This document shows, in pieces, positions 35,075 through 41,308 of a DNA stretch of 64,000 nt. A model generated the notes under the pieces. That model did no database searches. It worked only from the letters and a program-made list of their open reading frames with translations, and had not been told where the DNA came from. The position numbers were made by a program, and so were the translations under genes. This DNA comes from Pseudomonas oryzihabitans (GTDB taxonomy: Bacteria; Pseudomonadota; Gammaproteobacteria; Pseudomonadales; Pseudomonadaceae): NCBI RefSeq assembly GCF_014522265.1, contig NZ_CP017024.1:1144001-1208000 (forward strand), read 5' to 3'. Numbering within the stretch: the stretch's first letter is position 1; each line of letters opens with the position of its first letter.

Positions 35075-38000
35075 CTACAGCCGCTCCAGCGACGGCATCC
35101 AGACACGGATCAGCGAGAACAGCCGGTCCAGGTCGATGGGCTTGGCCAGGTAGTCGCTGGCACCGGCGGCGAGGCAGCGCTCCTGGTCATCCTTCATGGC
35201 CTTGGCGGTGATGGCGATGATCGGCAGCTTCTTCATGTGCGGCCGCTTGCGGATCTCGCGCATGGCTTCGTAGCCGTCCATCATCGGCATCATGATGTCC
35301 ATCAGCACCAGGTCGATGGTGTCGCTGTTGTCGAGCTTCTCCAGCGCTTCCAGGCCGTTGCGGGCGATCTCCACCTTGGCGCCCTTCTGCTCCAGGGCAC
35401 TGGTGAGGGCGAAGATGTTGCGAACGTCGTCATCCACCAGCAGCAGGGTGCGGCCATCGAAGGCCTTTTCGCGGCTGCGGGCGCTTTCCAGCATGCGCTG
35501 GCGATCGAGCGGCATGTCGGCCTCGATCTTGTGCAGGAACAGGGTCACCTCGTCGAGCAGTCGCTCCGGCGAGCGCGCACCCTTGATGATGATGGAACGC
35601 GAATACTTGAGCAGCGCCGCTTCTTCGTCGCGGGTCAGGCTGCGACCGGTGTAGACGATCACCGGTGGGAAGGAGCAGATGTCTTCGCTGGCCATGCGCT
35701 GCAGCAGCTCACCCCCTTCCATGTCGGGCAGCTTGAGGTCGATGACCATGCAGTCGTAGACCTCGTCGCGCAGCAGTTCCAGGGCCTGGCTACCCATCTC
35801 CACGGCGGTGATCTCCACATCCACGTCGCCGATCAGCTTGGCGATGCTGTCGCGCTGCAGGGCATCGTCTTCCACCAGCAGCACCCGCTTGATGCCGGCG
35901 GCGAACTTGGCTTCCAGCCGGGTGAAGGCCTCACGCAATTCGTCGCGGGTGGTGGGCTTGATGGCGTAGCCGACCGCGCCCATGTGCATGGCCGTCTCGA
36001 TGCGATCCGAGGCTGAGACCACGTGCACCGGGATGTGCCGGGTCAGGGGATTTTCCTTGAGGCGCTCCAGCACCGTGAGGCCGGAATGATCCGGCAGTCC
36101 CATGTCCAGCAGGATGGCGTCGGGGCGGTACTCCAGCGCCGCGGCGAAGCCTTCCTCGGCGCGATGGGCGATCAGGCAGCTGTACTTCAGCTCGTGGGCC
36201 AGATCGAAGAGGATCTGCGCGAAGGGCACCTCGTCCTCGATCACCAGCACTCGACGATCCGGATAGGGCCAGCTGTCCCGATCGTCAGCGAAGGCAGCTG
36301 CCACAGGCGCCGCTGCCTCGGTGACCGGCGGCGCTGCGGGCGGACGCGGGGTAGCGGCCAGGGTGGCGAGAGGCGCAGGTGCTGCAACCGGCATGGTGGC
36401 CTGCGCCGGGGCCATGACCGGCGTCACCGGCAGACCGGGCGCGGCGGCTTCCTGATACTCCAGCGGCAGGCGCAGGGTGAAGGTACTACCCTCGCCCGGC
36501 TGGCTGATGACGCCCAGGGCGCCACCCAGCAGCAGCGCCAAGTCGCGGGAGATCGACAGCCCCAGGCCGGTGCCGCCGTAGCGACGGGTAATGGCGCCGT
36601 CCGCCTGGCGGAAGGCCTCGAAGATCAGCTCCTGCTGCTCGGCGGCGATGCCGATGCCGGTATCGCTCACGGCGAAGCTGGGCTGGCCGTCTTCCAGCGA
36701 CAGGCGCAGGGTCACCTGGCCGTGCTCGGTGAACTTGAAGGCGTTGGACAGCAGGTTCTTGAGGATCTGCTCGACCCGCTGGCGATCGCTGAAGAAGGTC
36801 GACGGCATCTGCTCGTCCAGCTCCACCACGAAGGCGACGCCCTTGTTCTGGGCCACCGGCTCGAAGGCGGTCTTCAGGGCTTCCACCAGGCGGCGCACGG
36901 ACATCTGCTCCGGGCGGATCTCCAGCATGCCGGCCTCGACCTTGGAGATGTCGAGGATGTCGTTGATCAGGGTGAGCAGGTCGTTGCCCGCCGAATAGAT
37001 GGATTCGGCGTAGCGCACCTGCTCGGCACTCAGGTTGCCCACCGGGTTGTCCGCCAGCAGCTTGGACAGGATCAGCGAGCTGTTCAGCGGCGTACGCAAT
37101 TCGTGGGACATGTTCGCCAGGAATTCGGACTTGTACTGGCTGGCGCGTTCCAGCTCGCGCGCCCGGTCTTCCAGCAGTTGCTGGGCTTCGTTGAGGCGAT
37201 TGTTGCGGTCGTCCAGCACGTCGCGCTGCTGCAGCAGTTCCTGGGCCTGCTCGGAGAGTTGCTCGTTGGTCTGCTCCAGTTCGGCCTGCTGCTGCTCCAG
37301 ATGAACCTGGGATTCCTTGAGCGCCTGGGACTGTTCTTCCAGCTCTTCGTTGGCGGTGCGCAGCTCTTCCTGCTGTACCTGGAGCTCTTCGTTGAGTTGC
37401 TGGGTTTCCGCCAGCACCTGCTGCAGCCGCTGGCGATAGCGCGCGGCTTCCACCGAGGAACCGATGGAGTCGGCGATCAGGGTCAGCAATTCTTCGTCCT
37501 GCGGACGCAGGGCGCGCAGGAAGCCCAGTTCGACCACACCATTCACCCGGCCATCGTTCTCGATGGGCACGATGAGCGCCGCGCTGGCCTGGCGCTCGCC
37601 CAGCGCCGAATTGACCTTGAGGTAGTCGAGGGGCAACTGGTCGAGCGCCATTAGGCGACCGTCCAGCACGGCTTGCCCGGCCAGACCCTCGCCCGGAGAA
37701 AGGCGCTGGCGCCGGCGACGACCCTCGTCGTCGAGGGCGTAGTCGGCGACGCGCTCCAGGCTGCCGTCGTCGAGCCGTACATAGAGGGCACCGGCCGCGG
37801 CACCGAGATAGCGCGCCAGGAATTGCAGGATGCTTTGCCCCAGCGGCGCCAGCGTCGCCTGACCGATGACCGCTTCCGACAGCTGATTCTGGCCGGAGCG
37901 GAACCAGCTCTGTCGCTCAAGATTGTCGGTGTGCTCGGCCTGTTGATCGAGCAGCCGGGTGTAGGTCGCGGAAAGCCGCATGAGTTCGCGGCGACCAAAG

Positions 38001-38611
38001 AAGGCCATGATGCCCGACAGCAGCAGGCTGACGACGAGGAAGGCCGCCACGAACACCACCGTCATGCGGCTGGCCGTCGCGGTACGCTCGGCGCGCATCT
38101 GCTCTTCGTAGGCGATGAAGTCGGTGTAGTCGCGGCGGATGCTGTCGATGCGATTCTTCCCCTGGCCATCGCTCAGGGGGGTCTGGAAATCCCCCCCGGT
38201 GCGGCGCGCCTCGATCACCTGGCTGGCGTATTGGCGCCACTCTCGGTGTACCGCTTCGATCCGCTCCAGTCGGCGGATCTGCACGGCGCTGTCGCTGACC
38301 AGATTCTTCAACTCATCCAGTTGCGGCTCGACATTGGGCAGGGCGCGCTCATAGGGCTGCAGGAACGCGGTATTGCCGCTCAGCAGATAGCCGCGCATCC
38401 CGGTTTCCAGATCGACCACCAGGCGGAAGTTGGCGTTGGCCTCGCTGATGACACGGTCGGTGTGCTCGACCCACTGGGTGACCTTCAGCAGGTAATAGAT
38501 GATGGCGATGAAGAAGATCGCGCTGAAGACACCGATGCTCAGCGGCAGGGAAAGATTGCGCTTGAGGATCTGGCTGAAGTGCTTCTGATCGAGGGGCGAC
38601 TCGCGATTCAT
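35075..38611 (-). CDS. CHASE3-GAF hybrid histidine kinase with three receiver domains
   Basis: A 1178-residue inner-membrane sensor. In order: membrane segment (about 18-42), periplasmic CHASE3 domain with [14 protein letters not shown], second membrane segment (about 185-207), GAF domain (about 240-385), a long Gln/Glu coiled coil (about 390-490), HisKA with SHELRTPLN near residue 502, HATPase ([18 protein letters not shown]), then three receivers starting near residues 785, 907 and 1052, each with a phosphoacceptor Asp ([27 protein letters not shown]). ATG 38611 is preferred to TTG 38656. First gene of the operon, it lies near the rsmY-type RNA. The signal it senses is unknown. Confidence 0.92.
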
Positions 38612-38876
38612 GGGGTCTGAAAGCCTTGTACGGGACAAAACGGTCGGCGACGGCAAAGCCTCGGCCTGCGGGGGGGTGTCGTCACTGACCGTGGCGCAAC
38701 CGACGGTCGATCAAGGATATCGACACGGGCTGGCCGAAAGGCCTCGAACAGGACCATGGAAGGCGCATCCGCCTAGCACGGACGTCTTGCCCTCCGGCCC
38801 CTTTCGCTCCGGTCGGCGCTGACCCCTCGGGTCAACCAGGCGATCGCGGCATTCGGGTCTCGATCAGGCCGCTGGT

Positions 38877-39035
38877 TCAGCGACGGGCAATCACCCAGAC
38901 GGCATGAATGATACCCGGAATGTAACCCAGCAGCGTCAGCAGGATGTTCAGCCAGAAGGCGCCGCCGAAGCCGACCTGGAGGAAGACGCCCACGGGCGGC
39001 AGGATGATGGCGAAGATAAGGCGGATGAGGTCCAT
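38877..39035 (-). CDS. YqaE/Pmp3 family membrane protein
   Basis: A 52-residue protein, MDLIRLIFAIILPPVGVFLQ..., with two membrane helices joined by a Gly-rich turn and ending GIIHAVWVIARR. This is the Pmp3/YqaE family, small proteolipids induced by salt, cold or membrane stress. It stands alone between the hybrid-kinase gene and the RNA terminator at 39112. Confidence 0.9.
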   Translation of the reverse strand: MDLIRLIFAIILPPVGVFLQVGFGGAFWLNILLTLLGYIPGIIHAVWVIARR

Positions 39036-39111: not shown

Positions 39112-39136
39112 AAAAAACCCCGCCGAAGCGGGGTTT
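39112..39136 (-). terminator. Intrinsic terminator of the Rsm-type RNA
   Basis: Read on the minus strand: AAACCCCGC, TTCG loop, GCGGGGTTT, then TTTTA. A 9-bp stem with a tetraloop and T run ends the small RNA transcript. Confidence 0.9.
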
Positions 39137-39288
39137 CGCAGACTTAACCCGACATCCTTGTCAGGCCGCCAATCCTTGGCCATCTATCCCTGTAAGTCTC
39201 TGCCCGACATCCGTGCCGGGGGGCCATCCTGGCCATATTTCCTTGAAATCATCTGGAGCGCTGGGTACATCCTGTACCGCGATCCGAT
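39112..39288 (-). ncRNA. rsmY: RsmY-type regulatory RNA that sequesters RsmA/CsrA
   Basis: Titrates the translational repressor RsmA. On the minus strand the roughly 177-base RNA has eight GGA triplets. Five sit in hairpin loops with flanking stems: GGTAC-AGGAT-GTACC, GGCC-AGGAT-GGCC, CCGGCA-CGGA-TGTCGG, GCCA-AGGAT-TGGC, and CCTGAC-AAGGAT-GTCGGG. One contains ACAAGGATGT, the exact CsrA-binding consensus. AGACTTA pairs with TAAGTCT to close a larger domain. It ends in an intrinsic terminator and is preceded by a perfect GacA box. The family is clear; naming it RsmY rather than X or Z rests on its place beside acyl-CoA dehydrogenase genes, recalled from P. putida. The 5' end is estimated, and it is longer than the usual 120-130 bases. 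Confidence 0.87.
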
Positions 39289-39294
39289 GGGTGT

Positions 39295-39362
39295 AGATTA
39301 CGCAGCTATCAGAGACTAGGCGATGGCTTATCGCGGCGACGTGGTGTAAGCCAAAGCTTACA
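39295..39362 (-). promoter_or_regulatory. GacA box and -10 element of the Rsm RNA
   Basis: TGTAAG-N6-CTTACA at 39345-39362 is a perfect match to the upstream activating sequence of GacA-controlled RNAs. On the minus strand TAATCT (39295-39300) is a suitable -10; the start would be near 39288, 65 bases from the box centre, which is the known spacing. No good -35 is present, as expected for an activator-dependent promoter. Confidence 0.87.
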
Positions 39363-39394: not shown

Positions 39395-41164
39395 TTAGAA
39401 CGCCTCCTCGGCCAGGGCGTAGAGCGGTTGGGCGCCACTGCGCACGGCCGCAGCCAGGCTCAGGGTGCGCGGTAGCAGACGAGCGAAATAGAAACGCGCA
39501 GTGGCCAGCTTGGCTTCGGCGAAGGTCGCCTCCTGATCCGCCGCAGCGGCCGCCGCCCGGGCCCAGAGGTAACCATAGGCGACATAGCCGAACAGGTGCA
39601 GGTAGTCCACCGAGGCTGCCCCCAGTTCGTGGGGATCGCTGGCGCCGGCCTGCAGCAGCCATTCGGTCGCCCCGTCCAGCTGTTCCAGCGCTTGGCGCAG
39701 GGGTGCGGCGAATTCATTGTCCGCCGGCAGACCGCCCAGATAGCCATGGACCTCTTCGCTGAAGGGCCGATAGAGAGTACCGCGGCTGCCGGCCAGCTTG
39801 CGGCCGACCAAATCGAGGGCCTGGATGCCGTTGGTGCCTTCGTAGATCTGGGTGATGCGCACGTCGCGCACCAGCTGCTCCTGGCCCCATTCACGGATGT
39901 AGCCATGACCGCCGAACACCTGCTGACCGGCGACGCAGAGTTCCAGGCCGAGATCGGTGAGGAAGCCCTTGGCCACCGGGGTGAGCAGCGCCACCAGGGC
40001 CTCGGCGCGTTCGCGCTCGACGGGCTCAGGGCTGTACTTGGCGGTGTCGAGCTGCAGGGCGACATAGCTGGAGAACAACCGGCCGCCTTCGTTCAGGGCC
40101 TTCATGGTCAGCAGCATGCGCCGCACATCGGGATGGACGATGATGGGATCGGCGTTCTTGGCGGCCTGCTGGATGCCGGCCGGCGACCGACTCTGCAGGC
40201 GCTCGCGGGCGTAGGCCAGGGCATTCTGGTAGGAGCGCTCGCTCGAACCCAGGCCCTGGATGCCGACGCCCAGGCGCTCGTAGTTCATCATGGTGAACAT
40301 GGCGGCCAGGCCCTTGTTGACCTCGCCCACCAGGTAGCCGACCGCGCCGTCGAAGTTCATCACGCAGGTGGCGGCACCCTTGATGCCCATCTTGTGTTCC
40401 AGCGAGCCACAGGCCACGGCGTTGCGCGCGCCCAGGGCACCCGCCTCGTCCACCAGGATCTTGGGCACCAGGAACAGCGAGATGCCCCGGGAGCCGGCCG
40501 GCGCATCGGGCAGCTTGGCCAGCACCAGATGGATGATGTTCTCGGTGAGGTCGTGCTCGCCGGCGGTGATGAAGATCTTGGTGCCGGTGACCCGGTAGCT
40601 GCCGTCGAACTGGGGCTCGGCGCGGGTGCGGATCAGCCCCAGGTCGGTACCGGCATGGGGCTCGGTCAGGCACATGGAGCCGGCCCACTGGCCGCTGTAG
40701 AGGTTGGGCAGATAGGCCTGCTTCAGTTCTGCGCTGCCATGGGCGTGCAGGGCCAGGCAGGCACCGGCGCTGAGCATCGGATAGAGGCCGAAGGCCAGGC
40801 AGCTGGCGTGCATCATTTCCTCGACCTGGGCAGTGAGCACCTTGGGCATGCCCATGCCGCCGTATTCGGGATCGCCACCGACCCCGACCCAGCCGCCTTC
40901 GGCAAAGGCCTGGTAAGCCTGGCGGAAGCCCTGGGGCGTGGTCACTTCGCCGTTTTGCCAGTGGCAGCCTTCCTCATCGGAATTGCGATTGAGGGGCGCC
41001 AGTTCCTGGGCGCACAGCTTGCCGGCTTCTTCGAGGATGGCATCGGCGGTCTCGCCGTCCACCACTTCGGCCAGGGCAGGCCACTGACTCCAGCGGTCCC
41101 TGACCTTGAGGACGGCATCCAGCACGAAACGGATATCGCGAAGCGGCGGGGTGTAGTCAGCCAT
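39395..41164 (-). CDS. Acyl-CoA dehydrogenase (large, about 590 residues)
   Basis: First oxidation step of fatty-acid beta-oxidation with an FAD cofactor. The 589-residue protein starts MADYTPPLRDIRFVLDAVL and shows MCLTEPHAGTDLG and TKIFITAGEHDLTENI in the flavin/acyl-binding core, ERLGVGIQGLGSSERSYQNA, and QIYEGTNGIQALDLVGRKL. An additional C-terminal domain makes it longer than the 380-residue family. It resembles its upstream neighbour closely and the two probably arose by duplication. Start ATG 41164 follows GGAGACT. Confidence 0.93.
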   Translation of the reverse strand: MADYTPPLRDIRFVLDAVLKVRDRWSQWPALAEVVDGETADAILEEAGKLCAQELAPLNRNSDEEGCHWQNGEVTTPQGFRQAYQAFAEGGWVGVGGDPEYGGMGMPKVLTAQVEEMMHASCLAFGLYPMLSAGACLALHAHGSAELKQAYLPNLYSGQWAGSMCLTEPHAGTDLGLIRTRAEPQFDGSYRVTGTKIFITAGEHDLTENIIHLVLAKLPDAPAGSRGISLFLVPKILVDEAGALGARNAVACGSLEHKMGIKGAATCVMNFDGAVGYLVGEVNKGLAAMFTMMNYERLGVGIQGLGSSERSYQNALAYARERLQSRSPAGIQQAAKNADPIIVHPDVRRMLLTMKALNEGGRLFSSYVALQLDTAKYSPEPVERERAEALVALLTPVAKGFLTDLGLELCVAGQQVFGGHGYIREWGQEQLVRDVRITQIYEGTNGIQALDLVGRKLAGSRGTLYRPFSEEVHGYLGGLPADNEFAAPLRQALEQLDGATEWLLQAGASDPHELGAASVDYLHLFGYVAYGYLWARAAAAAADQEATFAEAKLATARFYFARLLPRTLSLAAAVRSGAQPLYALAEEAF

Positions 41165-41308
41165 GTCGAGTCTCCTCGGAAGGTGTTCTTGTCGGTATGA
41201 CCCGAGTGTAAGACCGAACCGGAAGGGAGACATAGGTTCATGATCTGACCTGGCGGTCAGCCGATCGGAGGTTCGCGCTGCTGGCTTCTTCGCATGCGTG
41301 AAAAAGCG

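Follow-up and report, generated by a model that had tools for sequence, protein, structure and literature searches.

Gene Content and Promoter Elements of the Locus

The window analyzed here is a 64,000 nt stretch of the chromosome of Pseudomonas oryzihabitans. Its minus strand carries, in the direction of transcription, a gene for an acyl-CoA dehydrogenase (39395–41233, by Pfam), a putative small RNA gene (39112–39288), a gene for a Pmp3-family small membrane protein (38880–39035; PF01679, E 1.7e-22) and a gene for a hybrid histidine kinase with the domain order CHASE3-GAF-HisKA-HATPase-3 receivers (35075–38656, by Pfam). The small RNA is a long form of RsmY of about 175–177 nt, its start having been placed from the spacing to an upstream GacA box. 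This box (TGTAAGCTTTGGCTTACA, 39345–39362, minus strand) is an exact match to the palindrome TGTAAG-N6-CTTACA, and its center lies 65.5 bases from 39288, just as a reading made from the sequence alone had described it (a perfect box centered about 65 bases from the start). The box-to-start spacing of other RsmYs, 56–62 nt, would put the start at about 39288–39282. Between the two lies a -10 region (GCTGCGTAATCTACACCCATC, 39286–39306, minus strand) at the usual spacing, with a mean column identity of 0.99 over ten orthologs. The intrinsic terminator, also foreseen from the sequence, occupies 39112–39136 on the minus strand; its core is CCCCGC-TTCG-GCGGGG-T6 (39133–39112), it is aligned in the Rfam model, and its mean column identity is 0.992. 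A simple scan for sigma-70 promoters and terminators reported neither a promoter nor a minus-strand terminator at the locus, the latter probably because the stem absorbs the T run.

The GacA box is the sole match in the window at one mismatch or fewer (shuffle mean 0.02). The same scan over the 5.05-Mb genome returned two sites, against one for a reversed control pattern, and the other site lies 174 nt upstream of the match to RsmZ. Twelve of the 13 genomes of the genus have one or two exact TGTAAG-N6-CTTACA sites each, and the reversed control has none. The remaining genome, G001, lacks an exact site, and its own RsmY is preceded by an RsmX-type box, TATGGC-N6-CTTACA. Among the ten orthologs of the long form the box is exact in eight and has one mismatch in the other two.

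Identification as RsmY

The Rfam model of RsmY (RF00195) matches 39243–39114 over its full length (model positions 1–121) with 53.9 bits and an E-value of 2.9e-12, and this is the best match of the model in the whole genome. The model scan proposed by the sequence-only reading thus gave a clear RsmY match, but with a score under the Rfam gathering score of 57, so that a standard Rfam scan reports nothing at the locus. The gathering score is an annotation threshold and not a biological feature. All ten long orthologs fall below it (47.8–54.4 bits) and the three short RsmYs of the same genus (G001, G004 and G012) score above it. The threshold therefore misses the RsmY of a whole species group (10/10 genomes here), and long RsmYs elsewhere may have been overlooked.

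The gene order acyl-CoA dehydrogenase - RsmY - Pmp3 - hybrid kinase is found in all 13 genomes of the genus, including the distant G001, G004 and G012, where the dehydrogenase is 72–75% identical. At RsmY loci of other genera, a dehydrogenase gene lies within 1.5 kb upstream in 19 of 30 cases; the distance from its end to the RsmY match is 83–217 nt in 14 of the 30 and about 1.0–1.2 kb in five. In P. aeruginosa, the acyl-CoA dehydrogenase genes PA0506–PA0508 and rsmY presumably flank the nir-nor-dnr cluster, which would fit this synteny. The conserved gene order argues that the locus is the RsmY ortholog of the P. oryzihabitans group, and together with the Rfam E-value it bears out the RsmY type assigned from the sequence. 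A 22-base piece of the RNA has exact matches in seven stretches of named records: three are from P. oryzihabitans, one is from P. rhizoryzae, and another three are from unnamed or uncultured Pseudomonas.

The gene has neither the TATAGC-N6-CTTACA box nor the type of 3' part that would place it in the RsmX family; its box is an exact TGTAAG-N6-CTTACA and its terminator part is of RsmY type. The RsmZ model (RF00166) gave eight matches up to an E-value of 10 in the genome, none of them on the RsmY locus; the genome's RsmZ lies at C1:3041969-3042093 (74.8 bits). The other Rfam matches at the locus, to istR, isrB, isrK, the rimP and rnk_pseudo leaders and still weaker ones, were rejected as mainly terminator-based or very weak, and a distant-mode search of a plasmid collection gave no match.

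GGA Motifs and Predicted Fold

Eight GGA motifs were counted in 39288–39113. The number agrees with the earlier count but is not what distinguishes this RNA, since 87 canonical RsmYs of other genera have 5–8 and 64 of 500 shuffled sequences have at least eight. What stands out is how the motifs are presented. The five minus-strand hairpins with AGGA or CGGA loops that had been noted earlier are located with their GGA at RNA nt 17, 60, 77, 114 and 132, the first of them in a 5' hairpin with an AGGAU loop (39259–39281, minus strand) that appears in both the minimum free energy (MFE) and the consensus fold. When a stem-presented site is defined by a local rule (a stem of at least four pairs directly adjoining the loop), all ten orthologs have these five sites, as two ANGGAX hexaloops and three AGGAX pentaloops. 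The 87 canonical RsmYs have none (7), one (19), two (59) or three (2) such sites, and hexaloops are missing from 65 of them, single in 20 and double in two. In 25 dispersed RsmX-like genes of the genus (see below) the number of stem-presented sites is 1–4. The exact RsmA/CsrA consensus noted earlier, ACAAGGATGT, is present at the second of the two modules described below (module B).

Six GGA lie wholly inside hairpin loops of the MFE fold, a number reached by none of 500 dinucleotide shuffles (maximum 4). Among 1278 tiles covering both strands of the window, the only one with at least four loop GGA is the RsmY locus. The MFE is -72.1 kcal/mol (z-score -2.61), and none of 200 shuffles was equally stable. 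In the global MFE folds of the ten orthologs, terminator included, the loop GGA number 6, 5, 3, 6, 5, 3, 3, 5, 6 and 5; the folds with only three are those of G003, G010 and G006, joined by G002 when the terminator is left off. The global folds predicted for the orthologs thus do not all show the five hairpins. None of the 56 base pairs was changed on both sides across the ten orthologs, which are too alike for covariation (97% identical), so that the support for the fold comes from its energy, the repeated motifs and conservation.

Length and Internal Duplication

Distances were measured between the end of the GacA box and the point where the Rfam match ends. This distance is 231 nt here and 231–232 nt in all ten long orthologs, against 173–174 nt in G001, G004 and G012, so that the RsmYs of the P. 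oryzihabitans group are 57–59 nt longer than the three short RsmYs found at the same locus within the genus. In the 87 canonical loci of other genera it is 168–185 nt, as measured from a box with at most three mismatches in 86 cases and from a half box with four mismatches in one, the nearer box being used where there were two. Two GacA boxes about 41 nt apart precede RsmY at five loci of genus g15 (L175, L177, L178, L183 and L102); the far box is exact and the one in the usual place has one mismatch in the first four, and the reverse holds in L102. In those four loci the far box lies 220–222 nt and the near box about 179–181 nt from the match end.

An RsmY match was found in 140 of 148 genomes of the family, 13 of them belonging to the genus and four to genus g17 (see below). 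Of the remaining 123, 87 entered the main comparison and three more were measured: G065 (169 nt), G016 (192 nt) and G164 (205 nt; its terminator stem is longer). Four second hits gave 163–173 nt, three having an RsmX-type box, TATAGC-N6-CTTACA, and one (L140) a half box. The locus L068, which is cut by a contig end, was excluded. Other long RsmYs may exist among the 33 unmeasured genomes.

A local self-alignment of the RNA matched nt 34–85 head-to-tail with nt 87–140 at a score of 37; 200 shuffles of the same RNA peak at 24, so that none reaches this value. Each of the two modules has one GGA in a linker or weak hairpin, followed by an AGGAX pentaloop and an ANGGAX hexaloop. Module A (39204–39255, minus strand) is delimited by its self-alignment with module B and has its three GGA in aaGGAa, a GGCCAGGATGGCC hairpin and an ACGGAU hexaloop hairpin. 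Module B (39149–39202, minus strand), which lies inside the Rfam match, has them in caGGGAta, a GCCAAGGATTGGC hairpin and an AAGGAU hexaloop hairpin. The repeat scores 37–48 in all ten long orthologs and 10–16 in nine short RsmYs, with 11–20 in 57 more. Module A scores 37 against module B and at most 31 against any of 62 RsmY or RsmX sequences.

The extra length thus stems from a three-GGA module that was duplicated head-to-tail inside the gene, and the five stem-presented sites and the length of about 175 nt both follow from this duplication. The earlier suggestion that an RNA longer than usual may carry extra binding hairpins holds in both parts: the RNA exceeds the canonical RsmYs that were measured, and its five stem-presented sites came about by duplication of a module. 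The number of GGA motifs was barely raised, to 8 against a canonical 5–8.

Conservation across the Ten Orthologs

Averaged over alignment columns, identity reaches 0.978 within the RNA and 0.928 within the box. It falls to 0.842 in the spacer that separates box and -10 region, and is 0.928 from the terminator to the Pmp3 gene. The first 45 nt of the RNA, which lie outside the Rfam match, are conserved about as well as the rest, in support of a start near 39288. Within both hexaloops the N of ANGGAX is the position that varies: module A has A or C there, and module B any of the four bases. The motifs match the affinity rules given in PMC4005645, by which the presence of this N, and not its identity, matters for the affinity of RsmE.

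Other Rsm RNA Genes in the Genome and Its Relatives

The genome also has four tandem RsmX-type genes at C1:2734677-2735469 (plus strand; L048 2100-2984), with a period of 227 bp and 95% matches. Each has a half-conserved box of its own (TATGGC or GATGGC-N6-CTTACA), a -10 region and a terminator. The array is flanked by an ABC transporter-like ORF and a GGDEF-like ORF, both judged by eye. According to PMC7911923, TATAGCGAAACGCTTACA is the rsmX box recognized by GacA, and the tandem rsmX genes described there are pairs; the array found here has four copies. The other nine genomes with the long form have 0 to 5 RsmX-type hits, a range that fragmented assemblies may undercount.

In the three genomes with a short RsmY, RsmX-like genes are dispersed, seven in G001, nine in G004 and nine in G012 (loci L063-L065, L074-L076, L112-L122 and L125-L131), beside one RsmY each. 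Two of the 12 RsmY-model hits in G004 (L123 and L124) have neither GGA nor a box and were dropped from this count. A CTTACA half box lies upstream of each of the 25, mostly as TATRGC-N6-CTTACA, and the distance from it to the match is 62–64 nt in 24 and 49 nt in one (L122). Multiple Rsm RNAs are on record in PMC7366521, which lists RsmX1-5, RsmY and RsmZ for P. syringae, and RsmZ1-7 and RsmY1-2 for Azotobacter vinelandii.

Genus g17 (L214-L217) comprises four genomes, each with two or three NifH over the cut-off, and is probably Azotobacter. Its RsmY match is preceded, 255–269 nt upstream, by a box with one or two mismatches; there is no run of four T in between. Because of this distant box and the lack of an intervening T run, the g17 RsmY is apparently about 330 nt long, with 20–22 GGA, and would represent a second, independent enlargement. 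No acyl-CoA dehydrogenase was found in the 1.9–2.5 kb upstream of the match at the four loci, and synteny thus gives no support for RsmY orthology there. Azotobacter rsmY is known and GacA dependent (PMC4824345). Its length was not found in the literature searched.

Start Site, Neighboring Gene and Origin

Two alternatives concern what is transcribed. An RNA of canonical length might start near 39243, which is where the Rfam RsmY alignment begins, leaving the preceding 45 bases (the 5' hairpin and the start of module A) as promoter DNA. The box would then end 101 nt before 39243, compared with 56–62 nt in other RsmYs; moreover, there is a conserved -10 region at 39306–39286, and it is the spacer between box and -10 region that varies (0.842), the 5' part being conserved. 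An RNA of canonical length is accordingly improbable. Still less credible, indeed very improbable, is that the sequence belongs to the Pmp3 gene, as its leader or attenuator, and is not a free RNA. That gene does follow on the same strand, 76 bases after the terminator, at all 13 loci of the genus, but no such gene was found within 1.5 kb at 28 of the 30 RsmY loci of other genera, and the strong terminator and a GacA box at the RsmY spacing also tell against a leader.

A third alternative leaves the function unchanged and concerns origin: the gene would be a hybrid produced by recombination between paralogs, its promoter core and first module derived from an RsmX copy and its last module and terminator from RsmY. 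In its -10 region the long gene is nearly identical to the RsmX genes of the same genome, but not to the short RsmYs of the genus, which look unlike it; this region scores 34 against the RsmX array, up to 32 against the 25 dispersed RsmX-like genes, at most 22 against 30 RsmYs of other genera and 11 against the three short RsmYs. The terminator part leans the other way: its score reaches 52 with RsmY and 46 with the dispersed genes, and is 33 with the RsmX array. This pattern is what a hybrid would leave, but module A scores higher with module B (37) than with any of the 62 RsmY or RsmX sequences (at most 31), the 5' hairpin favors neither family, and the box is of RsmY type and not the RsmX-type TATRGC-N6-CTTACA. 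Against the RsmX array both modules score about the same as against RsmY, or slightly higher. A hybrid in the full sense is unlikely, if less so than the two alternatives above; judging from the -10 region and, less strongly, from the modules, the long RsmY may have arisen with some exchange between it and an RsmX gene.

Proposed Mechanism and Gac/Rsm Components

Rsm RNAs mop up RsmA, a protein that controls translation, and so set how much of it is free. The level of free RsmA helps to set the switch between growth on the one hand and secondary metabolism, biofilm formation and related traits on the other. The genome has a gacA gene adjoining uvrC (NF007018, 306.6 bits against a cut-off of 280) and an rsmA gene with a product of 61 aa (E 3.7e-35 to PDB 1vpz). 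A second CsrA-family protein of 73 aa (C1:3515566-3515754, minus strand; L109 1492-1713) aligns without gaps over 65 residues to RsmF/RsmN, with an E-value of 7.8e-10 to PDB 4k59. The best candidate for GacS scores 829 bits, under the model cut-off of 890. The hybrid kinase gene at 35075–38656 (minus strand) lies beside rsmY at all 13 loci of the genus and within 1.5 kb at none of the 30 loci of other genera; its product might feed into the Gac system.

In the mechanism proposed, phosphorylated GacA would bind the palindrome at 39362–39345 and drive transcription from about 39288 to 39112. The RNA would fold into a series of hairpins that present GGA in their loops, and bind RsmA dimers and perhaps also the second, RsmF/RsmN-like protein. 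RsmA would thereby be taken off mRNAs and their translation released. As the presumed RsmA-binding part was duplicated inside the gene, each molecule would offer five stem-presented sites, where one or two are usual. The two hairpins of each module are 17–18 nt apart from GGA to GGA. A single CsrA dimer bridges sites 10–63 nt apart, with an optimum above 18 nt (PMC7652899), and by analogy the two hairpins could be bridged by one RsmA dimer, at a distance just short of the optimum.

The gene most likely specifies a GacA-driven, RsmA-sequestering RNA whose molecules each carry more strong sites than is usual. The analysis establishes the orthology, the conservation, the internal repeat and the presence of gacA and rsmA in the genome; from the sequence we infer the transcription start, the control by GacA, the binding of RsmA and the stronger sequestration per molecule. 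Taken as a whole, the reading that this is the rsmY of the P. oryzihabitans group, switched by GacA, binding RsmA and lengthened by an internal head-to-tail duplication, is given a probability of about 0.82.

An RsmY with a duplicated module, beside relatives with a single module at the same locus, is a natural experiment on how the strength of a sponge depends on the number and presentation of its sites. More generally, RsmY may be a modular sponge whose capacity evolves by copying of modules within the gene. This would have happened independently in at least two lineages, the P. oryzihabitans group and the probable Azotobacter; for and against this idea the odds seem to us evenly balanced. 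Lineages of the same genus have also multiplied whole RsmX genes, up to five in tandem or 7–9 dispersed. If the idea is true, there would be two routes to setting the RsmA threshold, one through the number of modules and one through the number of genes.

Comparison with Known Systems

RsmY is a known kind of RNA, of which the locus carries a lengthened, internally duplicated form. The literature search returned no paper combining RsmY with internal duplication, and none combining Pseudomonas oryzihabitans with rsmX. Longer Rsm RNAs are known from P. aeruginosa, namely RsmV and RsmW. These two were dropped as a comparison, being GacA-independent and seemingly specific to P. aeruginosa according to PMC7366521. 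One paper, on sponge bacteria, mentions both oryzihabitans and RsmY.

The locus shares with RsmY (RF00195) the GacA box and its spacing, the GGA hairpins, the terminator, the gene neighborhood and the sequence of the 3' half. It differs in length (about 175 nt versus about 120 nt, an increase of almost half) and in having two RsmA-binding modules with five stem-presented sites, where RsmY has one module with 0–3. RsmZ (RF00166) has the GacA box and GGA motifs in common with it, but differs in sequence and locus. The RsmX RNAs of Pseudomonas are of the same kind, and the RsmX genes of this genome share a nearly identical -10 region with the long RsmY. They differ in their TATAGC-N6-CTTACA box and a length of 107–111 nt in table entries of PMC7911923, which also describes the tandem rsmX-1/rsmX-2 of P. 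brassicacearum; the matches to the array of this genome are 112 nt long. RsmX has been amplified by copying of the whole gene, whereas the long RsmY has grown by copying of a module inside one gene. It resembles CsrB of E. coli, a sequestering RNA with many repeated binding hairpins. With 22 GGA (PMC7652899), CsrB has many more sites than the long RsmY, and its nearest parallel in this study is the apparent g17 RsmY of about 330 nt with 20–22 GGA.
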